DNA from: Pseudomonas fluorescens
Lineage (GTDB): Bacteria > Pseudomonadota > Gammaproteobacteria > Pseudomonadales > Pseudomonadaceae
Reading direction: 5' to 3'
Assembly: GCF_001648775.1 (NCBI RefSeq)
Contig: NZ_LVEJ01000026.1
Location: 1-64,000, forward strand
DNA length: 64,000 nt
The notes beneath the pieces were generated by a model. It saw nothing but the letters and a program-made list of their open reading frames with translations. It had not been told where the DNA came from and searched no databases. Of this stretch, positions 201 to 15,607 are shown piece by piece (the first letter of the stretch is position 1; every line of letters begins with the position of its first letter). Made by a program: the position numbers and the translations under genes.

Positions 201-247
201 AACAACCCAAAGCATGGTCGGCCCACAGGCCGCCAAGCCTAAAAGCC

Positions 248-505: not shown

Positions 506-644
506 TGCGGTTGTTCCTTTAGCAACTTCGAAGGGACGCGATCACAAACCTGAAAAGGCTCGCACCGCACCCCACCAGACTAAGAACAGTCGCCCGGCAT
601 CAACACCTCAAATTGCACCAAGCGCACTAGTGCATTTGCACCCT

Positions 645-2141: not shown

Positions 2142-2233
2142 TGGATCTCCACAAGTGATACGCCCATGTGAAGAGTACGACCGCACGCGCTTGCGATCGT
2201 GCCAGCGTTAAATTCTTGCAACAACGCAAATCC

Positions 2234-2327
2234 CCTGTGGGAGCGAGCTTGCTCGCGAATGCGGTACTTCATTCAGATCATTTTTCGACTGACACTATGC
2301 CTTCGCGAGCAAGCTCGCTCCCACAGG
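2234..2327. repeat. REP doublet
   Basis: Two inverted copies of the Pseudomonas REP palindrome (CTGTGGGAGCGAGC...GCTCGCGAA, then TTCGCGAGC...GCTCCCACAG) separated by about 40 bases. It lies between the divergent LuxR start and the end of the LysR gene, whose stop codon begins three bases after the element. Confidence 0.95.
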
Positions 2328-2329
2328 AT

Positions 2330-3223
2330 TCAGTGTTGGCTTGGGTGTTCGATGAGTTCACGCAGTGTATCGAGAAACAGCTTGAGCACCGGCGAAGCAT
2401 CATCCGCGCGATAAGTGGCATACAACGGCACTTCCGGCAGCGCCGGGGTCAAGCGCCGGAACACCAGCCCCGCCGGCGCCAATTGCTCAATGGACGCCGG
2501 TAACAGCGCCACGCCAAACCCGGCGCGCACCAGACTCAACAAGGTCTGCACCTCGATCACCTGCTGGCGAATCTGCGGGGTGAACCCGGCCTGTATGCAG
2601 CATTGATAAAGGAAGTTGGCAAACCGCGACTGCTTCAGTTCCAGCGCGACAAACGGTTCGCGGGCCAGATCCGCCGGCGCCAGCACCTCGCGGTCAGCCA
2701 GCGGATGATCCGCCGGCATCACCACGTGTATCGGCTCATAGATCAGCAACTCATTGCGCAACTGCGGATCGTCATAGCCCACGCGAAACACACAGGCATC
2801 GATGCGCTTCTCCTTCAACGCCTTGACTTGCGCCGCCGGGGTCATCTCGTGCAAGCGCCAATTGACCTGCGGATAGCGCTCGCGAAACAGGTGCAAGGCC
2901 TTGGGCAGCACGCCGACCATCACCGAGCTGATCATGCCGATTTCCAGTTCGCCGAGCAGACCGCGCCCGGTTTGCCGCGTCAGGTCCAGCGCCCGCTCGA
3001 GCTGTTCGAACACCAGCGGCGCCTGCTCCTTGAGCATCTGCCCCGCCGCTGTCAGCTCGACCCGATGATGGCTGCGCTCGAACAGCGGCGTGCCCAGTTC
3101 CTCCTCCAGCAAACGAATCTGCTGGCTCAGCGGTGGCTGGCAGATGTGCAGGCGTTCGGCGGCGCGACCGAAATGCAACTCATCGGCGAGTGCCATGAAG
3201 TAGCGGAGCAGACGCAAGTCCAT
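2330..3223 (-). CDS. LysR-family transcriptional regulator
   Basis: A 297-residue LysR-type regulator. The winged HTH is at residues 1-60 (MDLRLLRYFMALADELHFGR, then LHICQPPLSQQIRLLEEELG) and the periplasmic-binding-protein-like effector domain fills about 90-290. It is close to the group that regulates aromatic compound catabolism (BenM/CatM-like N terminus). It starts six bases after the stop of the molybdenum hydroxylase large subunit, in the same direction, so it is probably co-transcribed with the hydroxylase and may control it or the nearby catabolic cluster. The effector is unknown. Confidence 0.9.
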   Translation of the reverse strand: MDLRLLRYFMALADELHFGRAAERLHICQPPLSQQIRLLEEELGTPLFERSHHRVELTAAGQMLKEQAPLVFEQLERALDLTRQTGRGLLGELEIGMISSVMVGVLPKALHLFRERYPQVNWRLHEMTPAAQVKALKEKRIDACVFRVGYDDPQLRNELLIYEPIHVVMPADHPLADREVLAPADLAREPFVALELKQSRFANFLYQCCIQAGFTPQIRQQVIEVQTLLSLVRAGFGVALLPASIEQLAPAGLVFRRLTPALPEVPLYATYRADDASPVLKLFLDTLRELIEHPSQH

Positions 3224-3229
3224 GGCGAT

Positions 3230-5443
3230 TTACCCCAGGTTCAGTGGCGTCGAACGCTGGCGCACGCCGGTCAGCGCGAACAGCGCGTTGGCGATGGCCG
3301 GCACCACTGACGGACTGCCCAACTCGCCGACGCCACCGGGTTTGCTCGGCTCGCCGTCAAGTACGAGGATGTCGGTGGCCGGCATGTCGGACATGCGCGT
3401 GACGCGATAGTCGTGAAAGTTGCTCTGCACCACCCTGCCCTGTTTGATGTCGAGCCGGTCGAACAACGCGTGACCAAAGCCCCACATCAGGCCGCCGTAG
3501 ATCTGTTCCTCGACACCGCCCGGCGACACCGCCAAACCGCAATCGACCACGCAGGTGAGTTTCTCGACTTTCGCCTTGCCGTCGACCGTCACCACGCGCG
3601 CGACCACGGCGATAAAACTGGTGTAACCCTGATTGGTCGCGATCCCCAGCGCCGTGCCCGGCGGCAATGGTTTGCCCCAACCGGCGCGTTCGGCAGCTTG
3701 CTTGAGCACCGCCACATGGCGGGGTCTTTCCTGCATGTTGGCCAGCCTGAACGCCAATGGATCTGCACCGGCCGCATGCGCCAGTTCATCCATGAAGCTC
3801 TCGACGGCAAACACGTTGGGGATGAAGCTCACCGAACGATACCAGCCGCTTGGCACATTGCTTTCGTGCTTGACCCAATTCAGCTGCAGATGCGGCGGAC
3901 GATAGGCGAAGTCCCACGCGGTGATCGCCTCGGTAGTGCTGTAATCCATTTTATCCGGACGTTCGAAATAGCCCGGCTCCCACTGTTCCGGCGAGGCCGG
4001 CGACACCGCGTGCAGTTGCAGCGCGCTGAGTTTGCCTTGCTCGTCGAGCGCGCCTTTGACCCGATGCAACGTCGCCGGATGATTGAACAGCGCGTGCATT
4101 TCGTCTTCACGACTGTTGAGCAACTTCACCGGCACGCCGGTTTTCTGCGCCAGATACGCGACTTCGAACAACCAGTATTTGGCCTCGCGCGCACCGAAGC
4201 TGCCGCCCGACACCAACTCATGAATGGTCACATTGGCCTTGTCGATCCCGCACACGGTTTGCGCCGCTTCCAGCGCCGAGGACGGCACCTGCACGCCGCC
4301 CCACCAAGTGATTGCCTTGTCCTTGACCTGCGCGGTGATGCAGATCGGTTCCAGCGGGTTTTGCACCTTGTAGGGCATGGTGTAATCGGCTTCGATCAGC
4401 TTCGCCGCACCCGCCCATTGCCCGGCAACATCACCGTGGGTCATGGCTTTGACGGTTTGTGCTGTTGGATCGCCGATGGCTTTGGCTTGAGCGCTGAATA
4501 ACTGCTCGCTGTCGAAACCGGCCAAAGGTGAATCGCTCCATTTGATGTCCAGCACTTTACGGCCCTGCTGCGCCGCCCAAAAGGTATCCGCCAGCACCGC
4601 AACGCCTTCCAGATTGCCGCCGAGTACATCGGCACGACCCGGAATCGCCAGCACCTTGCGCACACCCGGGACCTGTAACGCCGCCGCCGAATCGACGCTG
4701 AGCACTTTCGCGCCAACCACCGGCGCACGCTGAATCACCGCCACCAGCATGTCCGGCAATTGCACGTCGATGCTGTACTTGAAACGCCCGCACACCTTGG
4801 CCGCCGCATCACGTTTGTGGCGCAGCTTGCCGATGTATTTGAACTGCGCCGGATCCTTCAGCGTGACGTTTGTCGGGGCGGGCAGATTCGCCGCGACGCC
4901 GACCAGTTCGCCGTAACCGAGGCTGCGCTTGCTGGCTGCGTGCACGACCCGGCCTTCCTCGGTGGTGCAACTGTCGGGGCTGACTTTCCACTGTTTCGCT
5001 GCAGCGCTAATCAACAGCGCACGCGCCGTGGCACCGGCCATGCGCAAGCGATCGTATTCAAGGGAAACGCTGGTGCTGCCGCCCGTGGAGAAGACTTTCC
5101 AGACCGGGTGAATGTAGGTTTCGAAGAACGGATCTTCCGGGGTGATCACCTGCACGGTCAGCGGGTTGACGTCCAATTCTTCCGCCACGCACGCGGCCAG
5201 CGCGGTGTGCGTGCCGGTGCCGGAATCGTGCTTGTGCACCACCAGTTTCACCGTGCCGTCGGGAAAGATGCGCACCCAGGCATTCGGCTCGAATTCGCTG
5301 GCCGGCGCTGGGGCTTTAGGGTCAGTGGCTGCCATGCTGCCCGGCAGATACAGGGCAATCGCCAGACCCGAAGCAACGGTCGCCGCTTGCTTGAGAAATA
5401 CCCGCCGCGGCAGTTCGATGCGGGTGTCGTCGATGAGGCTCAT
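3230..5443 (-). CDS. Molybdopterin-binding subunit of a Tat-exported molybdenum hydroxylase (isoquinoline 1-oxidoreductase beta type)
   Basis: A 737-residue catalytic subunit of the xanthine dehydrogenase family, single-chain IorB type. The N terminus has a twin-arginine signal (RRVFLKQ about residues 13-19, then a hydrophobic stretch and a processing-like PGSMAA). The molybdenum cofactor loops are visible: GGSFGAREAKY mid-protein and GVGELGSP near the C terminus with the likely catalytic Glu707. Known relatives hydroxylate N-heterocycles or oxidise aldehydes and pass electrons to the partner [2Fe-2S] subunit and then to a cytochrome. The gene overlaps the end of the FeS subunit by one base (TGATG). 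The substrate cannot be told from the sequence, and no cytochrome gene is adjacent. Confidence 0.88.
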   Translation of the reverse strand: MSLIDDTRIELPRRVFLKQAATVASGLAIALYLPGSMAATDPKAPAPASEFEPNAWVRIFPDGTVKLVVHKHDSGTGTHTALAACVAEELDVNPLTVQVITPEDPFFETYIHPVWKVFSTGGSTSVSLEYDRLRMAGATARALLISAAAKQWKVSPDSCTTEEGRVVHAASKRSLGYGELVGVAANLPAPTNVTLKDPAQFKYIGKLRHKRDAAAKVCGRFKYSIDVQLPDMLVAVIQRAPVVGAKVLSVDSAAALQVPGVRKVLAIPGRADVLGGNLEGVAVLADTFWAAQQGRKVLDIKWSDSPLAGFDSEQLFSAQAKAIGDPTAQTVKAMTHGDVAGQWAGAAKLIEADYTMPYKVQNPLEPICITAQVKDKAITWWGGVQVPSSALEAAQTVCGIDKANVTIHELVSGGSFGAREAKYWLFEVAYLAQKTGVPVKLLNSREDEMHALFNHPATLHRVKGALDEQGKLSALQLHAVSPASPEQWEPGYFERPDKMDYSTTEAITAWDFAYRPPHLQLNWVKHESNVPSGWYRSVSFIPNVFAVESFMDELAHAAGADPLAFRLANMQERPRHVAVLKQAAERAGWGKPLPPGTALGIATNQGYTSFIAVVARVVTVDGKAKVEKLTCVVDCGLAVSPGGVEEQIYGGLMWGFGHALFDRLDIKQGRVVQSNFHDYRVTRMSDMPATDILVLDGEPSKPGGVGELGSPSVVPAIANALFALTGVRQRSTPLNLG

Positions 5444-5907
5444 CAGGCCTCCTTCGGCGCATTCGCCGCACGTTTGATCGCTTTGTTGATGCGCCCGTAA
5501 GTGCCGCAGCGGCAGATATTCCCGGACATGGCATTGCGGATCGAATCATCGGTCACCGCTGCACCGGTGTTGAGCAACGCGGCGGCGGACATGATCTGCC
5601 CGGATTGACAGTAGCCGCATTGCGGCACATCTTCGGCGACCCAGGCCAGTTGCAGCGGATGGTTTTGCGTTGGCGACAAACCTTCGATGGTGGTGATGCT
5701 GTGGCCCGCGACGGCGGCCGCCGGCAACTGGCAGGAACGCACCGCGACGCCGTCCAGGTGCACGGTGCAAGCACCGCACAGGCCCATGCCGCAACCAAAC
5801 TTGGTGCCGGTGAGTTTCAGTTGATCACGCAAGACCCATAACAAGGGCATGGAGGAGGACGCTTCATCCAGCTCGCGTCGTTCGCCGTTAACCGTGAATG
5901 CAATCAT
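5443..5907 (-). CDS. [2Fe-2S] subunit of molybdenum hydroxylase (isoquinoline 1-oxidoreductase alpha type)
   Basis: A 154-residue electron-transfer subunit. The plant-type ferredoxin cluster is carried by C39, C44, C47 and C59 ([15 protein letters not shown]) and the second cluster by C97, C100, C132 and C134 (CGYCQSGQ and CRCGTYGR). There is no signal peptide, so it presumably rides through the Tat system bound to the large subunit. The ATG at 5907 fits the start of the family (MIAFTVNGE), while an upstream open extension to 6168 lacks family features. It heads the two-gene hydroxylase operon and diverges from a LysR gene 118 bases away. Confidence 0.92.
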
Positions 5908-5926
5908 TGTCAGGCTCCAAAAGAGC

Positions 5927-5946
5927 GGCCCGTCTTTGTGCGGGCC
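5927..5946. promoter_or_regulatory. Dyad in the divergent hydroxylase/LysR promoter region
   Basis: A perfect inverted repeat GGCCCG-N8-CGGGCC lies between the divergent hydroxylase operon and the LysR gene starting at 6026. It could be an operator for that regulator or an mRNA hairpin in the hydroxylase leader. Position and symmetry are seen, but function is only inferred. Confidence 0.35.
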
Positions 5947-6025
5947 TGGTGACCGATTATTGGAACCCCGAGCAAAACCCGGCCAGCGACGATTTCTGCC
6001 AACCGCTGTAAGCAGGACTAACAAC

Positions 6026-6931
6026 ATGTACAAGCGATACCCGTCGGTGCAGTCCATGAGCGCGTTTATCCACGCGGCGCGCAGCGGCAGCTTCTCCAGC
6101 GCTGCGCGCAAACTGGATCTGACCCACAGCGCGATCAGCCAGCAGATTCGCGCACTGGAGGATTTCATCGGTCAGCCGCTGTTCGTGCGTGAAGGTGGCG
6201 GCAGCAACCTGACCGATGCCGGGCAGTTGTTTGCCAGTGTACTGTCGGATGGTCTGGCGCAAATTGATCGGGCGCTCTCGTCGGTGAAAAACCGTAGCGT
6301 GGCGCAGCGTTTGACCTTGGATGTCGACAGTGAACTGGCGCAGAGCTGGCTCAACCCGCGCTTGCCGCAGTTGCTCGATGGGCTGCCGGATTACGAGGTG
6401 ACGCTGCTGTCGATGCCGCGCAGTGATCGCAGCACGTTTGAGCGGGTGGATCTGGCGTTGCGCTACGGCTATGGCGATTGGGATGACTGCGAGATGACGC
6501 AGATCTGTGGCGATCGGGTGCTGGCGGTGGCTTCGCCTGAACTGCTGGCGCAACACGGATTGCAGGTGCCGTTGAGCCCGGCGCAGATTCTGCAGTTGCC
6601 ATTGTTGGGCTATACGCGGCGCTCGTGGATTCCGTGGCTGGATGCCGCCGGGATGACACCGACCGAACCGCCGGCGCGGGTGATTTTTGATAATGCGGCG
6701 AATTTGATTGCGGCTGCCGAGGCTGGTGTCGGCGCGGGACTGGTGCGCGGATTACTGGCCGCCGATGCCTTGCGCAGTGGGCGGTTGGTGGCGTTGAACG
6801 AGGCGCAGATTGCCGCGCATTACAACCTTTACGCGGTGTGGCCGCATGGGCAGGCTGAGCGTGTGGCGCCGGTGGTTGAAGTGATCAGGCAGTTGGCTTT
6901 GCGTACGCTTGAAATCCCGCCCTCACCCTAA
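6026..6931 (+). CDS. LysR-family transcriptional regulator (GcvA-like)
   Basis: A 301-residue LysR regulator of the GcvA/AmpR-like branch: HTH at residues 1-65 ([20 protein letters not shown] and [20 protein letters not shown]) and a substrate-binding effector domain from about 95 to 295. The ATG at 6026 gives the family-standard start; the frame stays open upstream to 5849 across the divergent promoter, but that part has no homology-like content. It diverges from the molybdenum hydroxylase operon, the usual arrangement for a regulator of that operon, and lies upstream of the amidohydrolase cluster in the same direction. Confidence 0.9.
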
Positions 6932-7112
6932 CCCTCCCAAAACGTCGGACCGCCCAGAGGTAGAGGGGACTGACCGTGGGATATTGACGAAGTACACCGA
7001 CGTGCACCTACTGCTTTGAATCCATAATCGACTCGATCTTTCAGGTCGATGTCAGGCACAAGACACCTCGGTCGACCCCCTCTCCCTCCGGGAGAGGGCT
7101 GGGGTGAGGGGC
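6918..7112. repeat. MITE-like intergenic repeat, copy A
   Basis: The segment is bounded by CCCTCACCC on the left and GGGGTGAGGGG on the right and contains CCCTCTCCCTCCGGGAGAGGG and ggggactgaccg. A second element with the same ends and an internal sequence related to the reverse complement of this one lies at 42189-42357. The 426 bases between the LysR stop (6931) and the amidohydrolase start (7358) hold this element, the dyad and hairpin listed next, and no gene I can support. Confidence 0.6.
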
Positions 7113-7261
7113 TCTTGATCCAGCACCGGGATCTAAATACACAGTCCATATCGCCCAAGTATCACCACCCCGTCCAATTAATATTGTACGAACCCAACCC
7201 CGCCTTCCAATACTCGCCCTCAGCAGCCACCCACCCGGGCCGGATGCGAACAGGCGAGGGA

Positions 7262-7280
7262 ATGCGCGAGTCTTGCGCAT
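7262..7280. promoter_or_regulatory. LysR-type candidate operator upstream of the amidohydrolase cluster
   Basis: The perfect dyad ATGCGC-N7-GCGCAT is centred about 87 bases before the first amidohydrolase start. The size and spacing fit a LysR-type recognition site, and two LysR genes lie nearby. It is followed at 7312-7325 by a GAGCC-GCAA-GGCTC hairpin with a GNRA loop just before the ribosome binding site. The functional role is inferred. Confidence 0.4.
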
Positions 7281-7357
7281 AGAAACGGCCGATTGCCCGG
7301 GACGTGGATGCCGAGAGCCGCAAGGCTCCCTTCCCCGCAATCAGGAGATCGACTGCA

Positions 7358-8287
7358 ATGATCATCGATATCAGCTGCTATCCCACGGATCTCGTGGACC
7401 TCGCCTGGAGGCATGACGGTGACCCGTTCACCGGCGAGCGTCTGCTGGAGATGATGGATGGCCCGTACATGGTCAACGGCAAGCCTCGCCGCATTGACAA
7501 AGCCTTCATCCAGCCGCCGCAGGGCAACACGATTTACACCTGGACCGACGGCGACCTGACCGGCCGTGAATCCATCGACGCCTACATGGCCTACACCCTG
7601 AAAATGGTCCAGACCTACCCGGATCGTTTCATCGGTTGCTTCGTCTACAACCCGCGCTGCGGCGTGGAAAATGGCGTCGAAGCGATCGAGCGCTACGTCA
7701 AGGAACACGGTTTCGGCATGGTGCAGATGCAGGCCAACATGCACGCCTACCGTCCTGACCGCGCCCTCGACTGGGTACGCCCATGCTTTGAGAAATGCGC
7801 CGAGCTGGGCATTCCGGTCAAGCTGCACACCGGCGACGGGCCTTACAGCATCCCGTCGGAATGGGTGCCGATGATCAAGGAATTCCCTAACGTCAATTTC
7901 ATCATGGCCCACTTCGGTGTGCAGACCGGCGGCGTCTACGTGTTCGAACCGATGCAATGGGCGATGGAATTGCCCAACGTCTACTGTGAATCCGGCTGGT
8001 GTCTGCAATCGCGGATCGTCGAGTTCGCCAAGGTCTTGCCGACGCACAAAATCCTCTTCGGCACCGACACGCCGCCGAACGAACCGGGCATGTGGCTGCG
8101 CTTGCTTGAGGTGCTCTGCCACGAACCGCCGCAGGGCCTGAACCTCGACGAGGACACCCTCGAAGACTATTTGGGCAACAACACCGCGCGGATGATCGGC
8201 CTCGAACCGACCCCGCCACCCCGTTCCGTTTCCGAAGCAGAGGCGCAACTCAAGCGCCCCGTCACCACTCAACTGGCCAGGAGCTGA
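7358..8287 (+). CDS. ACMSD-family amidohydrolase-like protein lacking the HxH metal motif
   Basis: A 309-residue member of the amidohydrolase superfamily, ACMSD/gamma-resorcylate decarboxylase branch (COG2159-like TIM barrel). It is a close paralogue of the next gene. The usual strand-1 metal motif HxH is replaced by S6-C7-Y8 (MIIDISCYP), and the strand-4 Lys/His positions are Gln, whereas the later ligands H157, H185 and D237 remain. It may therefore be a non-catalytic partner or have an altered metal site. The ATG at 7358 follows CAGGAG. It heads a run of seven co-directional genes ending at 15607. Confidence 0.85.
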   Translation: MIIDISCYPTDLVDLAWRHDGDPFTGERLLEMMDGPYMVNGKPRRIDKAFIQPPQGNTIYTWTDGDLTGRESIDAYMAYTLKMVQTYPDRFIGCFVYNPRCGVENGVEAIERYVKEHGFGMVQMQANMHAYRPDRALDWVRPCFEKCAELGIPVKLHTGDGPYSIPSEWVPMIKEFPNVNFIMAHFGVQTGGVYVFEPMQWAMELPNVYCESGWCLQSRIVEFAKVLPTHKILFGTDTPPNEPGMWLRLLEVLCHEPPQGLNLDEDTLEDYLGNNTARMIGLEPTPPPRSVSEAEAQLKRPVTTQLARS

Positions 8288-8291
8288 ACCG

Positions 8292-9197
8292 ATGATCATC
8301 GACACCCATCTGCACCCGACAAATCTGGTCGATGAGGCCTGGCGCCACACCGGCGAACCGTTCACCGGCGAGCGCATGCTCAAGTTGATGGACGGCCCGT
8401 ACATGATCAACGGCAAGCCACGCCGCATCGACATGGGTTTCATCCAGCCGCCACCGGGCAACACCGGTTATCGCGACGGCAACCGTCGGGGCCGCGAAGG
8501 CGTACGCGACTACATGTCATACATCGCCGAACTGTGCATGAAGTACCCGGATCGCTTCATCGGCAACTTCAACTTCAACCCACGCTGGGGACCGGAAAAC
8601 GGTGCAGCGGAGCTGGAATTCCACATCAAGGAATACGGCTTCAAGATGCTCAAACTGCACGCCAACATGCACGGCTATCGTCCGGATCGCGCACTCGACT
8701 GGTTGCGCCCGGCGATGAAGGTCTGCGCCAAGTACAACATCGTCGTGCTGATCCACACCGGCGACGGCCCGTACACGATTCCGACGATGTTCTACCCGAT
8801 CATCCGCGAGTTTCCGATGGTCAATTTCATCATCGGCCACTTCGGTATCCAGACCGGCGGCAACTACTCGTTCGAAGCGTTCTGGATGGCGATGGACACG
8901 CCGAACGTGTACTGCGAATCGGGCTGGTGCTTCCAGTCGCGGATCGTCGAATTCGCCAAGGAACTGCCGCGCAACAAGATCGTGTTTGGCACGGATTCGC
9001 CGCCGAACGAGCCAGGGATGTGGCTGAGGGAACTTGAGGTGTTGTGCTCGCCGGCACCGCAGGGTTTGGGGATTGATGAGGATCATCTCGAGGACTACCT
9101 GGGCAACAACATCGCCCGGTTGTGCGGGATCGAACCGACGCCACCGCCCAAAGACCTGGCCGAAGCCGACATACGCCTGACCACCACGTACCTGTAG
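8292..9197 (+). CDS. ACMSD-family amidohydrolase (metal-dependent decarboxylase or hydrolase)
   Basis: A 301-residue TIM-barrel amidohydrolase with an intact-looking mononuclear metal site: H6 and H8 (MIIDTHLHP), H155 (LIHTGDGPY), H183 (IIGHFG) and D235 (FGTDSPPNE). Known family members decarboxylate aminocarboxymuconate semialdehyde, resorcylate, carboxyvanillate or iso-orotate, and others hydrolyse C-O or C-N bonds. AGGAG lies eight bases before the ATG, and the gene starts four bases after its paralogue, so the two are translated together and may form a hetero-oligomer. The substrate is unknown; the downstream UbiD, permease and deaminase suggest a heterocyclic or aromatic acid. Confidence 0.87.
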   Translation: MIIDTHLHPTNLVDEAWRHTGEPFTGERMLKLMDGPYMINGKPRRIDMGFIQPPPGNTGYRDGNRRGREGVRDYMSYIAELCMKYPDRFIGNFNFNPRWGPENGAAELEFHIKEYGFKMLKLHANMHGYRPDRALDWLRPAMKVCAKYNIVVLIHTGDGPYTIPTMFYPIIREFPMVNFIIGHFGIQTGGNYSFEAFWMAMDTPNVYCESGWCFQSRIVEFAKELPRNKIVFGTDSPPNEPGMWLRELEVLCSPAPQGLGIDEDHLEDYLGNNIARLCGIEPTPPPKDLAEADIRLTTTYL

Positions 9198-9209
9198 CCA
9201 TACACATAA

Positions 9210-9303
9210 CCTGTGGGAGCGAGCTTGCTCGCGAATGCGGTGTGTCATTCAACAACGATGGTGACTGAACCAATGCCTTCGCGAGCAAGCTCGCTCCCAC
9301 AGG
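9210..9303. repeat. REP doublet
   Basis: Inverted pair of REP palindromes (CTGTGGGAGCGAGC... and its reverse complement) between the second amidohydrolase and the ubiD-like gene. Confidence 0.95.
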
Positions 9304-9356
9304 GTTCGTTGCCAGGATTTAAAAGCACAGCGACTTTACAGGCACAAAGATGACCC

Positions 9357-9401
9357 GGCGTTCGTTCGTCCGGCAGGCCAACGGCTGGCCGCGCGAACGC
9401 C
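9357..9401 (+). promoter_or_regulatory. Structured leader hairpin upstream of the UbiD gene
   Basis: An eight-base perfect outer stem, GGCGTTCG (9357-9364) with CGAACGCC (9394-9401), encloses an inner perfect stem GGCCA-ACGGC-TGGCC (9376-9390). It ends 38 bases before the ubiD start codon and is followed by a short T-run at 9421. The layout suits an attenuator or a small ligand-sensing leader. An upstream in-frame ATG at 9350 would put this structure inside the coding region, which I consider less likely. Confidence 0.4.
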
Positions 9402-9439
9402 TCTCACCCCTGCGTGCCTGCTTTTTACGAGGTGACACC

Positions 9440-10825
9440 ATGACCCGTTCGACGCTCGGCGATTCTCAGGACTTTCACGTGTTCATCGACGCCTATCGCC
9501 GTGAGTACCCGGACGATGTGCTGACCGTCACTCACCCGATTTCTGCCGATCAGGACGTCACCGCCCTGGTCGATGCCCTCGCCGCCCAGGGCCGCGATCC
9601 ACTGCTGATCTGCGAAAACGTCGGCAACCTCGGCGTGCCGGTGGCGACCAATCTGTTCGCTTCCCGCACCCGTATCGCCCGACTGTTCGGCGTAACGCCT
9701 GCGCAGCTACACGAAACCTTCCAGACCCGTGCGAACCAGCCCATCGCCCCGCGTTATGTAGAAAGCGGCCCGATCCTCGATGAAGTCTTCGAAGGCGAAG
9801 CGCTGGACCTGGCGCTGCTGCCGATGCTCAAGCATTTCGACAGCGATCGCGGCCCGTACATCACCAACGCGATCATCGTGGCCGAAGACCCGCTGACCGG
9901 CATCGCCAACATGAGCTATCACCGCTCGATGCGCCACGCCCGCCAGGCCCTCGCTACCAGCCTGCACTCACGCGGCCACCTGTGGCGGATGCTGCAAACC
10001 GCGCGCGAACGTGGCGAAGAATTGCGTGTGGCCATGGTGGTCGGCGCGCATCCTTTATTCATGCTCGCCGCCGCTGCACGCTTGCCCTATGGCGCCGATG
10101 AGCGCGCCGTCGCGGGTGGGCTGTTCGGCGCGCCGCTGGAGCTGGTGAAAACGCCGCGCTACGGCATCGGTGTGCCAGCGTATGCCGAGTTTGTTCTGGA
10201 AGGCGCGATTGACCCTGCGGCCTACGCCGAGGAAGGGCCGTTCGGCGAATTCAGCGGTTATTCCTCGGATCGTTCGACCAACAACGTGCTGCGCGTCGAC
10301 ACCTTGTTAAAGCGCAAAGACGCCTGGCTGGTCGACGTCATGGGCGGTCGCTACGCCGAACACCTGACCCTCGCCCGTCTGCCGCGCGAAGCGGAAATGA
10401 GCGAGAAGCTCAAGGCGCGTTTCCCCGCCGTCACCGCCGTGCATTACCCCAATTCCGGCACGCACTTTCACTGCTATGTGGCGCTGGACCAGAGCCGCGA
10501 CGGCGAGGCGCGGCAGATCATGCTGGCGCTGCTCGGCTGGGATCCGTACCTGAAAACCGTGATCGCGGTGGACAGCGATATCGACATCAGTGACGACAGC
10601 CAGGTGTTGTGGGCACTGGCCACGCACTTCCAGCCGCACCTGGATATTTTCACCATCGATGGCTTGCCCGGCAGTCCGCTCGATCCATCGTCGTCGGTCA
10701 ATGGCACCACTTCGCGGATGGGCCTGGATGCCACTCGCGGTTCGGGCTTCGACGGGATCAAGGCGCAGCTCGATCAGGAAGTTCTGGAGCGCGCGCGGGT
10801 TTTGCTCAAAGGGCTTGAAGCGTGA
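9440..10825 (+). CDS. UbiD-family prenylated-FMN decarboxylase
   Basis: A 461-residue UbiD/Fdc-type non-oxidative decarboxylase. By comparison with Fdc1 spacing, the catalytic E-R-E set is R162, E265 and E270 (EEGPFGEFSGY) and the metal ligands for prFMN are N157, H180 and E221, so it looks catalytically complete. The family reversibly decarboxylates unsaturated or aromatic acids using prenylated FMN. The start codon at 9440 has GAGGTG six bases upstream. Its stop overlaps the start of the UbiX gene (GTGA), the expected cofactor partner. It is shorter than E. coli UbiD (about 497 residues), and the context argues for a catabolic rather than ubiquinone role. Confidence 0.93.
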   Translation: MTRSTLGDSQDFHVFIDAYRREYPDDVLTVTHPISADQDVTALVDALAAQGRDPLLICENVGNLGVPVATNLFASRTRIARLFGVTPAQLHETFQTRANQPIAPRYVESGPILDEVFEGEALDLALLPMLKHFDSDRGPYITNAIIVAEDPLTGIANMSYHRSMRHARQALATSLHSRGHLWRMLQTARERGEELRVAMVVGAHPLFMLAAAARLPYGADERAVAGGLFGAPLELVKTPRYGIGVPAYAEFVLEGAIDPAAYAEEGPFGEFSGYSSDRSTNNVLRVDTLLKRKDAWLVDVMGGRYAEHLTLARLPREAEMSEKLKARFPAVTAVHYPNSGTHFHCYVALDQSRDGEARQIMLALLGWDPYLKTVIAVDSDIDISDDSQVLWALATHFQPHLDIFTIDGLPGSPLDPSSSVNGTTSRMGLDATRGSGFDGIKAQLDQEVLERARVLLKGLEA

Positions 10826-11451
10826 ACCGGCAACGGCTGGTGGTCGGCATCAGCGGCGCGTCCGGGTTTATCTACGGCGTGCGACTCCTGCAATTGCTCG
10901 CCGAGCTGAACATCGAAAGCCACCTGATCATCAGTCGCGCCGCGTTGCTGACCATGGCTCACGAGACGGACTACAAACTGGCTGACGTCACCGCGCTGGC
11001 CAGCCACTACCTCCGCGCCGATGACGTCGCCGCCGGGATCGCCAGCGGATCGTTTCGCTGCCTCGGGATGGTGGTTGCACCGTGTTCGATGAGGACGCTG
11101 GCAGAGATCGCCACCGGCACCTCATCGGGGCTGATCGGCCGCGCTGCAGACGTCACGCTCAAGGAGCGCCGCACGCTGGTGCTGATGGCCCGGGAAACTC
11201 CGTTGACCCTCGCCCACCTGCGCAACATGACCGCCGTCACCGAGATGGGCGGAATCATCGCCCCGCCAGTACCGGCGTTCTACGCCCGCCCGGAAAACCT
11301 CGGGCAAATGGTCGACCACAGCCTTGGTCGCGTGCTCGACCTGTTTGGTCTCGACTCTGGCACCGCACAACGATGGAGGGAACACCAAGCATCCTGTGGG
11401 AGCGAGCTTGCTCGCGAATGCGGTGGGTCAGCCACCCTCCGCGCTAAATGA
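10822..11451 (+). CDS. ubiX-like: UbiX-family flavin prenyltransferase
   Basis: A 209-residue protein that makes prenyl-FMN for the preceding UbiD homologue. Family motifs are clear: GISGASG at residues 8-14, VVAPCSMRTLAEIATG mid-protein and a RETPLTLAHLRNM segment. The GTG start overlaps the ubiD stop by four bases. The last roughly 19 residues (from about CGSELAREC) are encoded by the REP palindrome at 11393 onward, so the natural 3' end has been overwritten by a repeat insertion and the protein carries a REP-encoded tail. The catalytic part is complete. Confidence 0.92.
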   Translation: MNRQRLVVGISGASGFIYGVRLLQLLAELNIESHLIISRAALLTMAHETDYKLADVTALASHYLRADDVAAGIASGSFRCLGMVVAPCSMRTLAEIATGTSSGLIGRAADVTLKERRTLVLMARETPLTLAHLRNMTAVTEMGGIIAPPVPAFYARPENLGQMVDHSLGRVLDLFGLDSGTAQRWREHQASCGSELARECGGSATLRAK

Positions 11452-11485
11452 CACACCGCCTTCGCGAGCAAGCTCGCTCCCACAT
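11393..11485. repeat. REP doublet overlapping the UbiX 3' end
   Basis: An inverted REP pair whose left palindrome lies inside the UbiX reading frame and supplies its C-terminal codons. The right palindrome lies 39 bases before the CobW gene. Confidence 0.95.
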
Positions 11486-11524
11486 TTGATCTCACTCCGA
11501 CAAAAAGTACCTGAGGAGCTTTAG

Positions 11525-12586
11525 ATGAACACTTCCTTCAACGCCCCAACCCGCAACACCAAAATCCCCGTGACCATCCTCACCGGTTTCCTCGGTGCCG
11601 GTAAAACCACCCTGCTCAATTACATCCTCAAGGAAAACCACGGCCGTAAAATCGCCGTGATCGAAAACGAGTTCGGCGAGGTCGGCATCGACGGCGATCT
11701 GGTGCTCAGCTCCGAGACCGAGGAAATCTACGAGATGGTCAACGGCTGCGTGTGCTGCACCGCCGAGGTTCGCGAGGACCTGGTGCGCATCGTTCGCGAG
11801 CTGGTCGCGCGCCCGGTGCGCCTCGATCACATCCTGATCGAAACCAGCGGCCTGGCCGATCCGTACCCGGTGGCGCAGAGCTTCTTCATCAACGATCCGA
11901 TTGCCGAGGAAGTCGAACTCGACGCGATCGTGACCATGGTCGACGCCAAGCACATCGCCCAGCATCTGGAGGATCTGCAACTGGACGGCGTCGATAATCA
12001 GGCGGTGGATCAGATTGTTTGTGCCGACCGGATCGTCATCAACAAGGTCGATCTGGTCAGCGCTGAAGAGGTTGAAACCCTGCGCGGCAAGATCCGTGGA
12101 TTGAACGCCACGGCAGATCTGGTGACCTCGACCCATGCGCAAATCGACCTGACGAAAATCCTCGGTATCGGTGCCTTCGAATGCACGCAGAAGCTCATGG
12201 AAATCGGCGCGGATCAGCACGATCACGATCATCACGACCATGAGCATCACGCTGAGCACTCTATTGAAGAGCAGGATCACCAACACGACCCAAGCGTGTC
12301 ATCGGTAGGCATCGCCGTGGACGGCGCGGTCAACCTGATGGCGTTCCATCGCTGGATCAGCGAACTGCGTTCCTCTCAGGCCGACAACCTCTATCGCATG
12401 AAAGGCGTGCTCGCGGTGGCCAACGAAGACCAGCGCTACGTGCTGCAAGGCGTGCACAGCCTGGTGGAATTTCGCGCCTCGACCGCGTGGGGCACGGAGC
12501 CCCGTTCGAGCAAGATCGTCTTCATCGGCCGCGACCTGGACCGCGCGGCGCTGAACCAGGGCTTCGCCGCCTGCCTGGCAGGCTGA
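11525..12586 (+). CDS. CobW/COG0523-family GTP-dependent metallochaperone
   Basis: A 353-residue P-loop GTPase of the CobW/ZNG1 family. The Walker A GFLGAGKT is at 21-28, the signature GCVCC at 74-78, the INKVD specificity motif follows, and a His/Asp-rich metal-binding stretch (DQHDHDHHDHEHH type) spans about 229-252 before the C-terminal CobW domain. Such proteins hand Zn, Co or Fe to client metalloenzymes. Being placed among metal-dependent amidohydrolases, it probably loads one or more of them. TGAGGAGC precedes the start. It lies 73 bases after ubiX. Confidence 0.93.
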   Translation: MNTSFNAPTRNTKIPVTILTGFLGAGKTTLLNYILKENHGRKIAVIENEFGEVGIDGDLVLSSETEEIYEMVNGCVCCTAEVREDLVRIVRELVARPVRLDHILIETSGLADPYPVAQSFFINDPIAEEVELDAIVTMVDAKHIAQHLEDLQLDGVDNQAVDQIVCADRIVINKVDLVSAEEVETLRGKIRGLNATADLVTSTHAQIDLTKILGIGAFECTQKLMEIGADQHDHDHHDHEHHAEHSIEEQDHQHDPSVSSVGIAVDGAVNLMAFHRWISELRSSQADNLYRMKGVLAVANEDQRYVLQGVHSLVEFRASTAWGTEPRSSKIVFIGRDLDRAALNQGFAACLAG

Positions 12587-12663
12587 AACAAGGCATCGGA
12601 GCCGGTGGATGGCGGCTTCGCAGCACGAATGACTGATGTTCGCCACTTGGGGCTGCACAAGTC

Positions 12664-12757
12664 CCTGTGGGAGCGAGCTTGCTCGCGAAGAGGCCGTCAC
12701 ATTCAACCTCTCAGTTGACTGACATATCGCCTTCGCGAGCAAGCTCGCTCCCACAGG
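12664..12757. repeat. REP doublet
   Basis: Inverted REP pair between the CobW gene and the NCS2 permease gene, which share the same direction. Confidence 0.95.
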
Positions 12758-12837
12758 GTTCCACTGTGTCCTTGAGCTGATCGGCATCAGACGAATACCC
12801 CTCTCTACCGCATAAAAACAGCCAGAGGTGTTTCCCC

Positions 12838-14205
12838 ATGTCGTCAGCCACATCCCCAACCAAATCCGCCACCACCGTGCACCCCGTCGACCGCATTCTG
12901 CCGGTACGACAGATGCTCACCCTCGGCCTGCAACACATGGCCGTCTCGTACATCGGCGCCATCGCCGTGCCGTTGATTGTCGCCAGTGCCCTGAAAATGT
13001 CCCACGCCGACACAGTGGTGTTGATCAGCACCACGCTGTTCTGCTCGGGCATCGCCACCCTCCTGCAAACCGTCGGCTTCTGGAAATTCGGCGTGCGCTT
13101 GCCAATTCTGCAAGGCGTGGCGTTCAGCAGCGTCGGCCCGGTGATCGCCATCGGCAGCAACCCGGAGGTGGGGTTCGCCGGAGTCTGCGGGGCGGTGATC
13201 GGCGCGGGGATTTTCACCATGCTGATGGCGCCCTTCGTCGGGCGATTGCGGCGATTCTTCCCGCCCGTGGTCACCGGTTGCATCGTCACCGTGATTGGTC
13301 TGCAACTGTTCCCGATTGCTTATGAATGGGTCGGCGGCGGGCGCAACGCGAGCAACTTTGGCGCGCCGGCATTCCTCGGCGTGGCCGTGGTGGTGCTGCT
13401 GACGATTCTGCTGGTCAACCGTTATGGCAGCCCGATGCTGCGCAACATGGCGGTGTTGATCGGGATGCTGGTTGGCGCCGGTCTGGCGTACGGCCTGGGC
13501 ATGGGCAGTTTTCACAGCGTCGAAGAAGCGCCGTGGCTGACCGTGCCCTACCCGTTTTATTTCGGCTTGCCGACCTTCAGCCTGATCCCCATCGCGACCA
13601 TGGTGGTGGTGATGATCGTGCAGATGGTCGAGTCGATGGGGCTGTTCGTGGCCATCGGCGACATCGTCGAAAAACCGGTCGAGGACAAACAGGTCATCAA
13701 CGGTCTGCGCGCCAATGGTTTGGCCAGCACCATCGCCGGGATGTTCGCCGCGTTCCCGTTTATCGCCTTCATGGAAAACGTCGGCCTGGTGATCCTCACC
13801 GGCGTGCGCAGCCGTTGGGTGGTCGCGGTCAGCGGCTTGCTGATGTGCTCGATTGCCTTGGTGCCGAAGGCCGGCGCGATCATCGCATCGATGCCGACTG
13901 CCGCCCTCGGTGGCGCCGGCATCGCGATGTTCGGCGTGGTCGCGGCGGCGGGCATTCAGACCCTCGCCAAAGTCGATTACGAGCGCAATCGCTACAACGT
14001 GCTGATCGTCGGTTTCACCATCGCCGCCGCGCTGGTGCCGGTGCTCGCCCCGACCTTGTTCAAACAACTCCCCGAGTGGTCGCAGCCGTTCCTGCACAGC
14101 AGCGTGGTTATCGCTTGCCTGGTGTCGGTGCTGCTCAACGCCGCGCTGAATGGCGTCAGCGTGCCGGAAACCACCGCCAGCAAATCCGCCTCGCACATCC
14201 TTTAG
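12838..14205 (+). CDS. NCS2-family nucleobase permease (xanthine/uric acid type)
   Basis: A 455-residue inner-membrane symporter with about 12-14 predicted transmembrane segments. NCS2 hallmarks are visible: QHMAVSYIGAIAVPLIV in the first helix, VESMGLFVAIGDI in helix 8, and the helix-10 signature ENVGLVILTGV (the Gln usual at the first position is Glu here). Closest in style to UacT/XanP-type purine carriers. GAGGTG precedes the ATG. Its position directly before the deaminase gene (14-base gap) suggests it imports that enzyme's substrate or a precursor. The exact substrate is not deducible. Confidence 0.9.
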   Translation: MSSATSPTKSATTVHPVDRILPVRQMLTLGLQHMAVSYIGAIAVPLIVASALKMSHADTVVLISTTLFCSGIATLLQTVGFWKFGVRLPILQGVAFSSVGPVIAIGSNPEVGFAGVCGAVIGAGIFTMLMAPFVGRLRRFFPPVVTGCIVTVIGLQLFPIAYEWVGGGRNASNFGAPAFLGVAVVVLLTILLVNRYGSPMLRNMAVLIGMLVGAGLAYGLGMGSFHSVEEAPWLTVPYPFYFGLPTFSLIPIATMVVVMIVQMVESMGLFVAIGDIVEKPVEDKQVINGLRANGLASTIAGMFAAFPFIAFMENVGLVILTGVRSRWVVAVSGLLMCSIALVPKAGAIIASMPTAALGGAGIAMFGVVAAAGIQTLAKVDYERNRYNVLIVGFTIAAALVPVLAPTLFKQLPEWSQPFLHSSVVIACLVSVLLNAALNGVSVPETTASKSASHIL

Positions 14206-14218
14206 TTTGGAGCTGCCC

Positions 14219-15607
14219 ATGACTCAACTTCAGAACATCCTGATCAAAAACCCGGTCGCGGTGATGACCGGCCTGCGCGGCCCTCGCGCGCGGGCCGGCG
14301 CGGTGGACATCCGCGTGGTCGACGGTCGCATCGCCGAATTGGCCGCCGACCTGCAAGCGCAACCCGGCGAACGGGTGATCGACGCGCGCAACTGCGTGGT
14401 CTATCCGGGCTGGATCAACACCCACCATCACCTGTTCCAGAACTTGCTCAAAGCCGTGCCCGCAGGTCTGAATCAGGATCTGCAAGGCTGGCTGGCCAGC
14501 GTGCCCTACCCGCGCCTCAACCGCTTTACCCCACAACTGGCGCGGATTGCTGCACGGCTGGGCATGGTCGAATTGCTGCTGTCCGGCGTCACCACCTGCG
14601 CCGATCACCATTACCTCTATCACGCCCACGGCAGCACCGAGACCGGCGACTTGCTGTTCGACATGGCCGATGAATTCGGCCTGCGCTTTGTGCTGTGCCG
14701 TGGCGGTGCGCTGGAATCGGCAAGCGCGCATCCGGGCTTCTCGAAAACCGCGCTGCAACCGGAAAGCCTCGAGCAAATGGTCGGCGATATTGAACGGCTG
14801 AAATCGCTGTATCACCAGGACACCCCGGACGCGATGCGCCGCGTAGTTGTCGCCCCAACTACGCCGACCTTCTCGCTGCCGCCAACGCTGCTGCGCGAAC
14901 TCGCCCACACCGCACGCAGCCTCGGTTTGCGCCTGCACACACATTTGTCGGAAACGCAGAACTACGTGAATTTCTGCCGCGAAAAATACAACTGCCTGCC
15001 GGTGGAATTCGTCGCCGAACACGAATGGCTCGGCCCCGACGTCTGGTTCGCCCACGCCGTGCACCTGCAACCCGGCGAAATCCGCATGCTCGCGCAAACC
15101 GGCACCGGCATCTCCCATTGCCCGGTGAGCAATGCCCGGTTGGGCAGCGGCGTGGCGCCGGTGCCGCAGATGTACGAGGCAGGTGTGCCGATTTCCCTTG
15201 GCGTCGATGGCGTGGCGTCGAACGAATCCGGGAGCATGGTCGGCGAGGCCAACACCGCGTGGCTGATCCATCGCGCCGAACAAGGCGCATCGGCGACCAC
15301 CGCTGAAGACGTCATCCACTGGGGCACAGCGGGAGGCGCGCAGGTGCTCGGCCTTGGCGCGGTCGGCACGCTCGAAGTCGGGCAAGCGGCGGACCTGGTG
15401 ATCTACAGCCTCGACCATCCACGCTTCTACGGCTTCCACGACCGCGCCGTTGCACCGGTGGTGGCGGGCGAACCGATCACGGTGAAATACAGCCTTGTCG
15501 CCGGCCGTGTGGTCGTCGATAACGGTGTGATTCCGGGGCTGGACATCGAACGCATGCGCGCCGAAGCGTGGGAAGGTGTGCAACAGTTGATGGACGTTGA
15601 CGACTGA
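14219..15607 (+). CDS. 8-oxoguanine / isoxanthopterin-type deaminase (amidohydrolase superfamily)
   Basis: A 462-residue subtype-III amidohydrolase. H69 and H71 (NTHHHLF) are the strand-1 ligands, followed by LHTHLSETQNYVNFC, the FAHAVHL strand-6 His and the GVDGVASNESG strand-8 Asp. These segments closely resemble P. aeruginosa 8-oxoguanine deaminase PA0142 as I recall its sequence, and the related isoxanthopterin deaminases. Such enzymes replace an exocyclic amino group of a purine or pterin by oxygen. TTGGAG precedes the ATG at 14219. It closes the cluster begun by the tandem amidohydrolases. Substrate not certain. Confidence 0.82.
   Translation: MTQLQNILIKNPVAVMTGLRGPRARAGAVDIRVVDGRIAELAADLQAQPGERVIDARNCVVYPGWINTHHHLFQNLLKAVPAGLNQDLQGWLASVPYPRLNRFTPQLARIAARLGMVELLLSGVTTCADHHYLYHAHGSTETGDLLFDMADEFGLRFVLCRGGALESASAHPGFSKTALQPESLEQMVGDIERLKSLYHQDTPDAMRRVVVAPTTPTFSLPPTLLRELAHTARSLGLRLHTHLSETQNYVNFCREKYNCLPVEFVAEHEWLGPDVWFAHAVHLQPGEIRMLAQTGTGISHCPVSNARLGSGVAPVPQMYEAGVPISLGVDGVASNESGSMVGEANTAWLIHRAEQGASATTAEDVIHWGTAGGAQVLGLGAVGTLEVGQAADLVIYSLDHPRFYGFHDRAVAPVVAGEPITVKYSLVAGRVVVDNGVIPGLDIERMRAEAWEGVQQLMDVDD

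Follow-up and report, generated by a model that had tools for sequence, protein, structure and literature searches.

Gene content of the locus

The 64,000-nucleotide stretch of Pseudomonas fluorescens DNA analyzed here (the window) carries, at 7358-15607, seven co-directional genes on the plus strand that a preliminary description had delimited as a candidate catabolic cluster for a heterocyclic compound; examination of open reading frames, translations and profile matches verified all seven within these limits. The list was correct as far as it went but omitted the neighboring genes of a molybdenum hydroxylase and its LysR-type regulators, and the inclusion of this hydroxylase changes the logic of the pathway. 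The features are:

2330..3223, minus strand: LysR0, a LysR-type regulator (LysR homologue in 75/80 related loci, paralogues possibly included)
3230..5443, minus strand: XdhB, molybdopterin subunit of a xanthine-dehydrogenase-family hydroxylase (NCBIfam matches to this family, all below cut-offs)
5443..5907, minus strand: XdhA, 2Fe-2S subunit and partner of XdhB (NCBIfam matches to PucE/XdhC-type [2Fe-2S] proteins, below cut-offs)
6026..6931, plus strand: LysR1, a GcvA-like LysR-type regulator (Pfam LysR domains)
7358..8287, plus strand: AmhA, an Amidohydro_2 protein with the beta-1 HxH motif replaced by an invariant S-x-Y, here S-C-Y (Pfam, alignment of copies)
8292..9197, plus strand: AmhB, a predicted Amidohydro_2 metalloenzyme of ACMSD-branch fold (Pfam, ligand motif, fold neighbors)
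9440..10825, plus strand: UbiD-family prenyl-FMN decarboxylase (family profile, nearest solved relative 6H6V)
10822..11451, plus strand: UbiX-family flavin prenyltransferase (profile matches)
11525..12586, plus strand: CobW/COG0523-type (G3E) GTPase (profile matches)
12838..14205, plus strand: NCS2 nucleobase permease of the xanthine permease (PbuX) subfamily (TIGR03173)
14219..15607, plus strand: isoxanthopterin/pterin-type deaminase, a COG0402-type amidohydrolase (alignment with 2PAJ and 3HPA)

The LysR1 reading frame is open from 5849, and its start was set by the length of the homologue in locus L006; the UbiD frame is open from 9350, with the gene start taken as 9440; and the deaminase start was placed at the ATG at 14219, the first ATG of the frame (14150) falling inside the permease gene. 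The 3' end of ubiX runs into a REP-type inverted repeat.

Conservation of the cluster

Related loci were collected by scanning genome contigs for relatives of AmhB and retaining the best 80 of 223, of which 46 are from Pseudomonas. Homologues of AmhA, AmhB, UbiD and UbiX are each present in 80/80 of these loci, those of CobW and the NCS2 permease in 75 and 73, and that of the deaminase, the least constant of the seven, in 69. Of these loci, 74 are long enough to be tested for gene order, and in 67 of them all seven genes share one order and one strand, an arrangement that exceeds chance and bears out the notion of a single conserved catabolic unit; scattering of the genes in relatives, which had been named as the observation that would speak against it, was not seen in the loci examined. 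The conserved unit is larger than seven genes. Homologues of XdhB, XdhA and LysR1 occur in 67, 68 and 64 of the 80 loci, respectively, and the XdhAB pair is present in 64 of the 72 loci whose sequence extends 9 kb or more ahead of amhB, so that the molybdenum hydroxylase pair and two LysR genes travel along with the seven; in the Burkholderia-type order, LysR0 immediately adjoins amhA.

The cluster occurs in pseudomonads, in Burkholderiaceae and on the pSymB megaplasmid of Sinorhizobium meliloti. AmhB is its most conserved protein (82-100% identity across alpha-, beta- and gammaproteobacteria), and among 126 plasmid records the best-matching place is at least 80% identical in 91 and less than 60% identical in 35, with none between. 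In the Alphaproteobacteria seen (L100, L101 and L156), a cytosine-deaminase-like enzyme replaces the 2PAJ-like deaminase. An AMDase-like gene is found in 13 loci and is alone in spanning five genera among the 16 recurrent neighbor groups shown; a class II aldolase joins the locus in two Rhizobiaceae. No published account of such a cluster was found in the literature searched.

The amidohydrolase pair and the UbiD decarboxylase

Both amidohydrolases match Pfam PF04909 (136 and 160 bits, gathering score 26.4), and fold comparison agrees with their proposed placement in the ACMSD branch: among the matches listed, AmhB reaches Z scores of about 19-22 and AmhA of 18-20 against members of this branch, at 11-21% identity. 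The fold neighbors of AmhB among these matches are mostly decarboxylases (2,6-dihydroxybenzoate, ACMSD, iso-orotate and 5-carboxyvanillate), while COG3618 proteins and the LigJ hydratase score 19-20 against AmhB, the top match being 22. A close characterized orthologue in another pathway, the second observation named in advance as unfavorable, was found for neither protein in the databases searched, there being no NCBIfam family and a best PDB match of 29 bits. The description of the two as twins, taken to mean equals, is not supported. The HxH metal motif (HLH) is kept in 81/81 copies of AmhB, and H155, H183 and D235 are kept in the aligned motifs shown, whereas AmhA reads S-C-Y at the HxH position in 81/81 copies; judged by this motif, AmhA was rejected as a catalytic ACMSD-branch (PF04909) enzyme. 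AmhA is probably a non-catalytic or re-purposed partner of AmhB, and a weak to moderate case can be made that the two form a heteromeric complex. CobW is probably a metallochaperone that serves AmhB, the deaminase or both.

The expected UbiD/UbiX pair is present, both families being matched. The nearest solved relative of the cluster UbiD is 6H6V (208 bits), which we take to be HmfF, the furan-2,5-dicarboxylate decarboxylase, with a five-membered heteroaromatic carboxylate as substrate. In an alignment with checked numbering, HmfF residues H296, R304 and E305, presumably part of its substrate site, are conserved in the cluster enzyme; the neighboring site residues R331 and Y332 are replaced by H and F, so the substrate site differs, and the enzyme was not filed as HmfF. 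PA0254 and AnInD, presumably acting on pyrrole and indole carboxylates, are also among the solved relatives. We know of no UbiD enzyme that acts on an imidazole C2 carboxylate.

The deaminase and its association with AmhB

The cluster deaminase aligns with 2PAJ at 456 bits (50% identity over 451 residues), compared with 298 bits (40% over 419 residues) for 3HPA and 280 bits for 7WW2, named an 8-oxoguanine deaminase; PDB names are generic, and we take 2PAJ to be isoxanthopterin deaminase and 3HPA an 8-oxoguanine deaminase. The predicted isoxanthopterin type is thus favored. An APTT stretch is common to the cluster enzyme and 2PAJ, whereas 3HPA and 7WW2 read APCSP there, and this stretch may be a specificity determinant. 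As an 8-oxoguanine deaminase equivalog (PRK08203) the cluster enzyme was rejected, with 432.9 bits against the NCBIfam cut-off of 532; a second deaminase elsewhere in the genome carries APCSP and, at 701.5 bits for PRK08203, scores as 8-oxoguanine deaminase. In Massilia (L071), a deaminase gene precedes amhA by 0.25 kb in the same orientation, and its product is 54% identical to 2PAJ over 466 residues. In the excerpts of PMC5270733 consulted, Hall et al. (2010) is the source for the activity of such deaminases on isoxanthopterin and pterin-6-carboxylate.

Among 299 Burkholderiaceae genomes, 61 have a close orthologue of the deaminase; every one of these is AmhB-positive, and none of the 235 AmhB-negative genomes has it. 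Of the 61 pairs, 38 lie within 8 kb of each other, 20 at 8-17 kb and 3 on different contigs; the co-occurrence is thus mostly physical linkage (58/61 within approximately 17 kb), and because of this, and because the genomes are related, its small p value exaggerates the evidence. Our confidence in a pterin substrate and in the full route was set slightly lower for the linkage. The close orthologue is missing from 3 of the 64 AmhB-positive genomes; two of these three are assemblies in at least 500 contigs. Distant copies (48-55%) occur in 17 of the 299 genomes, only 8 of which are AmhB-positive, and 2PAJ-like deaminases are therefore not exclusive to the cluster pathway.

The molybdenum hydroxylase and the permease

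The translation of XdhB has an N-terminal Tat-type motif (RRVFLKQAA). The protein was rejected as a canonical xanthine dehydrogenase (TIGR02965; 83.7 bits against a cut-off of 849.5), and the canonical enzyme of this genome is encoded on another contig. The latter, which would act on the xanthine formed by the cluster, is present in 64/64 AmhB-positive and 151/235 AmhB-negative Burkholderiaceae, a co-occurrence that serves only as a consistency check, since the comparison is unmatched for genus and genome size. The predicted nucleobase permease exceeds the TIGR03173 cut-off for xanthine permease (473.6 against 414.15 bits); permeases of the xanthine subfamily carry small uncharged nucleobases. 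According to the portions consulted of PMC11121863 and PMC9966888, enzymes of the xanthine dehydrogenase family hydroxylate pterin at C7, form leucopterin from xanthopterin and produce violapterin from lumazine.

A proposed route from pterins to xanthine

Gene content, conservation, co-occurrence, the metal-ligand pattern and the nearest families are established by sequence; the substrate class is deduced fairly strongly, whereas the order of steps is proposed and the activities of AmhAB and UbiD are deduced at weak to moderate strength. We consider it reasonably probable that the substrates are oxidized pterins of the isoxanthopterin, xanthopterin and leucopterin type, pterin being the better of the candidates proposed in the preliminary description; no result points to the orotate-like acids that it also listed. 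More tentatively, these compounds may be taken up and degraded, via xanthine-8-carboxylate, all the way to xanthine. Tat-exported XdhAB would oxidize C7, C6 or both in the pteridine ring, and the NCS2 permease would import the oxo-pterin. The deaminase would then strip the 2-amino group, yielding violapterin or, from leucopterin, 2,4,6,7-tetraoxopteridine. A heteromer of AmhB, as the metal centre, and AmhA, without HxH, would hydrolytically open the pyrazinedione ring and reclose it as an imidazole, giving xanthine-8-carboxylate, which UbiD, with prenyl-FMN made by UbiX, would decarboxylate to xanthine for ordinary purine catabolism, while CobW would supply metal.

The chemistry of deamination, ring contraction and decarboxylation is said to have been worked out in Alcaligenes in the 1960s, the contraction being known as EC 5.5.1.3, tetrahydroxypteridine cycloisomerase; to our knowledge this is an orphan activity with no gene assigned. 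It is more doubtful that AmhA and AmhB, a metal-binding and an obligatorily degenerate subunit, convert a pteridine to a purine by forming xanthine-8-carboxylate from tetraoxopteridine and that the UbiD is a prenyl-FMN purine-8-carboxylate decarboxylase. Judged by family, a second decarboxylase role would be at least as natural for AmhB as that of a cycloisomerase. The AMDase-like gene and the class II aldolase count against the pterin route, as neither is explained by its steps.

Alternative substrates

An unlikely alternative retains a pterin, folate-derived pterin-6-carboxylate, which the hydroxylase would oxidize at C7 and the deaminase would accept with its 6-carboxylate in place. This group, which would then have a hydroxyl next to it, like those of gamma-resorcylate and iso-orotate, would be removed by AmhAB or UbiD, the other decarboxylase acting later, possibly on xanthine-8-carboxylate, with the contraction spontaneous or catalyzed from outside the cluster. 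The fold neighbors of AmhB, ortho-hydroxyaryl decarboxylases and a 5-carboxyuracil decarboxylase, suit this scheme, and a Caballeronia plasmid (L157) has, some 6 kb from amhA, a gene of the M20 peptidase family, which we take to be that of the folate-cleaving carboxypeptidase G. However, the permease is of the xanthine subfamily, no folate hydrolase is among the 16 recurrent neighbor groups shown, and a pyrazine carboxylate would fit an HmfF-like UbiD poorly. Pterin-6-carboxylate is a reported substrate of the 2PAJ-type family (PMC5270733, in excerpt), and soil folate degraders exist (PMC9513972, in excerpt). Loss of a ring carboxylate by the compound taken up, which is what the preliminary description specifically envisaged, is a possible but less favored reading.

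It is quite unlikely that the substrate is another plant, soil or synthetic heterocycle with no connection to pterins and that the deaminase was taken over to act on some other aminated ring. The core substrate may carry its amino group only incidentally, given that the deaminase differs between lineages, being 2PAJ-like in most loci but of the cytosine-deaminase-like kind in those Alphaproteobacteria that were seen, and the aldolase and AMDase-like genes added in some lineages point the same way; the identity of AmhB over three proteobacterial classes, in turn, speaks for a substrate that is natural and old and against recent assembly of the pathway. Catabolism of oxidized purines, with 8-oxoguanine or an 8-substituted guanine imported and deaminated and a purine carboxylate as UbiD substrate, would agree with the permease subfamily and the secondary similarity of the deaminase to 3HPA and 7WW2; it is made improbable by the closer match to 2PAJ, with APTT rather than APCSP, by the separate 8-oxoguanine-type deaminase of the genome and by the fact that with an 8-oxopurine there is no need for a decarboxylase or for AmhAB to open the ring. 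Turnover of a queuosine-related 7-deazapurine carboxylate (7-carboxy-7-deazaguanine) by deamination, UbiD pyrrole-carboxylate decarboxylation and hydroxylation is highly improbable, for although the substrate is guanine-like and carboxylated and PA0254 and AnInD are among the UbiD relatives, no queuosine-pathway gene is in the 16 neighbor groups shown, the known deaminase relatives act on pterins and AmhAB would have no obvious role.

Comparison with known systems

Folate and pterins are widespread, the latter being related to folate and to insect pigments. Catabolism of pterin and isoxanthopterin by Alcaligenes was reportedly described by Levenberg and Hayaishi in 1959 and by McNutt in 1963-64, and is said to comprise the steps predicted here: deamination, hydroxylation, contraction to xanthine-8-carboxylate and decarboxylation to xanthine. 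That work was biochemical and concerned another organism. The 1959 paper of Levenberg and Hayaishi and one by McNutt from 1963 are references 25 and 26 in the excerpts of PMC9513972, which leave the Variovorax folate study at deaminated products and call the mechanism of environmental degradation not fully elucidated; in the literature searched, no gene-level description of folate or pterin decay past deamination was found. The Arad3529-type enzyme (Agrobacterium, Variovorax; same excerpts) is an amidohydrolase that acts as a pterin deaminase, the role proposed for the replacement deaminase in L100, L101 and L156, of which it is at most a functional analogue. Isoxanthopterin deaminase itself, with which the cluster and Massilia enzymes share the above identities and the APTT stretch, came from marine metagenome DNA (Hall et al. 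2010), and the excerpts of PMC5270733 assign it no pathway or operon.

HmfF is the best solved likeness of the cluster UbiD, which differs at R331/Y332 and is accompanied by UbiX and AmhAB in 80/80 loci; no furan-pathway genes are among the recurrent neighbor groups shown. If the proposed route is true, this UbiD would be the first prenyl-FMN purine-8-carboxylate decarboxylase, EC 5.5.1.3 would gain its first gene assignment, and one conserved cluster would supply candidate genes for an orphan enzyme, join pteridine with purine catabolism and provide a missing link in the bacterial mineralization of pterins from folate and animal pigments. With ACMSD, 2,6-dihydroxybenzoate decarboxylase, iso-orotate decarboxylase and LigW, the amidohydrolase pair shares a fold and, in AmhB, the ligands HxH, H, H and D; it is set apart by low identity to the matches listed and by a degenerate AmhA in 80/80 loci, and would be a clear case of an amidohydrolase travelling with a twin whose metal site is dead.

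Gene content of the cluster

The seven genes of the preliminary description were recovered where it had placed them, all on the forward strand, and are preceded by genes for a xanthine-dehydrogenase-family hydroxylase (XdhAB) and two LysR-type proteins.

Features of the cluster and its upstream region
3230-5443 and 5443-5907, opposite strand: the two hydroxylase subunits, upstream of the seven genes
upstream, with the hydroxylase genes, opposite strand: LysR gene
about 6026-6931: second LysR gene, between the hydroxylase genes and amhA
7358-15607, forward strand: amhA, amhB, ubiD, ubiX, a cobW-type GTPase, an NCS2 permease and a COG0402-type deaminase, in that order

For the deaminase, the ATG at 14219, directly after the permease stop at 14205, is preferred as the start to the first ATG of the reading frame (14150), which falls within the permease gene. 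The molybdenum subunit of the hydroxylase, XdhB, carries a Tat-type motif at its N-terminus, which suggests that the enzyme is probably exported. Across loci, the Tat pattern is found in 46 of 68 XdhB reading frames, a count given no weight here, as most of the 22 misses have over-extended or truncated starts. The hydroxylase was rejected as a canonical xanthine dehydrogenase, scoring 84 bits against TIGR02965 (cut-off 850), and the canonical enzyme of this genome is encoded on another contig. The large subunit of the latter lies at G000:C12:295779-300259, followed after approximately 1.2 kb by a COG0402-type gene that probably encodes guanine deaminase.

Three REP-type inverted-repeat pairs with arms 82-94% complementary lie inside the cluster (9210-9303, 11393-11484 and 12663-12758), the second of which overlaps the 3' end of ubiX, so that the final residues of UbiX are repeat sequence. 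No Rfam match at the gathering score was found in positions 1-22000 of the window, and scans for promoters and terminators yielded 1 and 8 hits versus 2.0 and 7.9 expected, respectively.

Conservation and distribution of the cluster

Scanning genome contigs with AmhB yielded 223 relatives, the best 80 of which were used; 46 of these 80 are from Pseudomonas, and the counts are weighted to near relatives. Within this set, AmhA, AmhB, UbiD and UbiX are each encoded in all 80 loci. The gene order, which the preliminary description had proposed to check across Pseudomonas, is kept: all seven genes share identical order and strand in 67 of the 74 loci of sufficient length (six shorter loci were left out), the exceptions being L068, L071, L072, L073, L076, L079 and L083. 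Both hydroxylase genes occur in 64 of the 72 loci that have 9 kb before amhB, eight loci too short upstream being left out; among the eight without the pair, L071 and L076 contain XDH-type genes that fail the test. In L071, from Massilia, the genes for UbiX and CobW stand apart from ubiD (1-7386), followed by ABC-transporter-like genes including one for a BMP-like binding protein, which may replace the NCS2 permease.

The core was also detected on the pSymB replicon of S. meliloti, on plasmids of Paracoccus, Ensifer and Shinella, and on a Caballeronia plasmid, where an M20 peptidase gene lies nearby. A three-subunit form of the hydroxylase is encoded in S. meliloti, Ensifer, Shinella and one of the two Paracoccus loci, and XdhC-type maturation genes join the cluster in Ensifer, Shinella and one Paracoccus. 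In the relevant excerpts of two Sinorhizobium papers, pSymB genes that may or may not be those of the cluster (SMb21286-21288 and SMb20132) appear as list entries, without a substrate.

The distribution of AmhB is patchy: it occurs in 20 of 199 Pseudomonas genomes and 4 of 398 genomes of a phylum-wide sample (the genome of the window included in both counts), and in 64 of 299 Burkholderiaceae genomes. AmhB matches twice in every positive genome, with AmhA as the weaker match, except that G597 gives three pieces, with AmhB split over two contigs. The best matches in 126 plasmid records fall into two groups, 91 with at least 80% identity and 35 below 60%, with none between; the 11 listed among those 35 are 23-30% identical. 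AmhB is the most conserved protein of the cluster, with a median identity to the window of 90% across the 34 loci outside Pseudomonas, compared with 75% for UbiD, 73% for the deaminase and 64% for XdhB.

AmhA and AmhB differ at the first metal site

The preliminary description had treated AmhA and AmhB as twin amidohydrolases, a view that does not survive if it means two equal enzymes. The proteins are 64% identical, and the later H, H and D ligands are kept in both, but the first metal site reads HLH in all 81 copies of AmhB and SCY in all 81 copies of AmhA (80 loci and the window). AmhA has thus lost the HxH motif and yet stayed under strict constraint, and we read the pair as a putative heteromer (AmhAB) in which one subunit binds metal and the other is degenerate.

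The predicted models of AmhA and AmhB have moderate confidence, with mean pLDDT values of 78 and 74, and match the ACMSD branch, the top matches being the uncharacterized structure 3CJP and hydroxybenzoate decarboxylases (for AmhB, Z about 22, rmsd 2.6-3.0, 235-253 aligned residues), while COG3618 proteins and LigJ follow at Z 19-20. In this fold search, decarboxylases were not separable from lactonases and hydratases, and the reaction of AmhAB is not nameable from the modelled fold alone.

The deaminase is linked to AmhB

The deaminase shares 50% identity with 2PAJ (451 aligned residues) and 40% with 3HPA (419). We take 2PAJ to represent the isoxanthopterin deaminase described by Hall et al. 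2010. An excerpt of a later paper (PMC5270733) quotes isoxanthopterin and pterin-6-carboxylate as substrates of the latter enzyme. The other deaminase copy of the genome (G000:C4:13054-14382, L095) scores as an 8-oxoguanine deaminase, with 701 bits, and serves as an internal comparison.

Orthologues at 66% identity or more, a threshold chosen after seeing a gap between 66% and 55%, occur in 61 of 299 Burkholderiaceae genomes, all 61 with AmhB, and in none of 235 AmhB-negative genomes (Fisher p about 1e-60, ignoring genome relatedness and gene linkage). The distance to amhB is below 8 kb in 38 genomes and 8-17 kb in 20, with the genes on different contigs in three (G565, G255 and G584), so the co-occurrence figure largely repeats what the physical linkage of the two genes already shows. 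Three AmhB-positive Burkholderiaceae genomes (G525, G617 and G621) have no orthologue. With contigs matched by position, the deaminase gene was found on another contig, next to an NCS2 gene of its own, in the genomes of L072 and L083, and approximately 15 kb from amhB in that of L076; L071 has a copy with 54% identity to 2PAJ 0.25 kb upstream of amhA.

Proposed pathway and alternatives

The substrate is more likely than not of the pterin class. Excerpts of published work describe XDH-type enzymes as hydroxylating pterin at C7 to isoxanthopterin and converting xanthopterin to leucopterin (PMC11121863) and lumazine to violapterin (PMC9966888). Hydroxylation of this kind would be followed by deamination of leucopterin to tetraoxopteridine, which AmhAB would contract to xanthine-8-carboxylate and UbiD would decarboxylate to xanthine. 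Ring contraction could proceed by hydrolysis of one pyrazinedione lactam and subsequent cyclodehydration, which would suit a metal amidohydrolase. According to McNutt, tetraoxopteridine is reportedly isomerized in Alcaligenes to xanthine-8-carboxylate (EC 5.5.1.3), which is then decarboxylated to xanthine. The references of PMC9513972 include Levenberg and Hayaishi 1959 and a 1963 McNutt paper on deamination, and not the isomerase work. In the open-access literature searched, a scope that leaves most subscription papers outside, no paper was recognized on this cluster or on genes for the conversion of a pteridine to xanthine-8-carboxylate, a compound named in one excerpted paper only, as a mass-spectral alternative to tetrahydroxypteridine.

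As a hypothesis, this pathway would place all conserved genes in a complete series of steps, and the full route with AmhAB as the ring-contracting enzyme is proposed tentatively. By fold, AmhAB could equally be a decarboxylase, for instance in a pterin-6-carboxylate route, the first of the rival readings. The closest solved relative of UbiD, 6H6V (208 bits), which is presumably HmfF, bears on this choice: H296, R304 and E305 are kept, H and F stand in place of R331 and Y332, and the likeness would suit a five-membered heteroaromatic ring bearing a carboxylate, which describes xanthine-8-carboxylate and not lumazine-6-carboxylate. An 8-oxoguanine pathway has been demoted to a rival. The orotate or iso-orotate pathway was dropped as the leading idea, as the recurrent neighbor groups listed contain no pyrimidine-pathway gene and the deaminase is of the pterin type. 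The observation made in the preliminary description stands and is extended, and its interpretation is supported in part, without the equal twins and the orotate-like lead.

Variable neighbors and the alphaproteobacterial deaminase

Thirteen of the 80 loci have an AMDase/Asp-Glu-racemase-type gene as a neighbor of the cluster; they come from beta- and gammaproteobacteria (Burkholderia, Caballeronia, Paraburkholderia, Marinobacterium and an Oceanospirillaceae bin). In Ensifer and Shinella, a class II aldolase gene adjoins a cytosine-deaminase-like gene and a BMP-type ABC transporter; by way of speculation, a possible role of the aldolase is retro-aldol cleavage of the side chain of neopterin- or biopterin-like substrates.

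Additional genes at related loci
L062 16824-17549; L055 16942-17673; L083 14257-15030; L157 18829-19617: AMDase-type gene (Pfam Amdase for the L157 copy)
L156 4363-5151 (reverse strand); L155 4357-5157 (reverse strand): class II aldolase (PRK06486 above cut-off in L156)
L100 26799-28094; L101 18084-19361; L079 15554-16828; L158 19580-20810: cytosine-deaminase-like amidohydrolase of Alphaproteobacteria

In the Alphaproteobacteria seen, this cytosine-deaminase-like protein takes the place of the deaminase, to which it gives only a short 35% match. The replacement forms one family, with 66-68% identity among Sinorhizobium, Paracoccus and Ensifer; the Paracoccus methylovorus copy (L158) seemingly has its reading frame broken in two. 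Arad3529, a known pterin deaminase of Agrobacterium and at most a functional analogue of the replacement, is assigned in PMC9513972 to a branch of cyclic amidine hydrolases.
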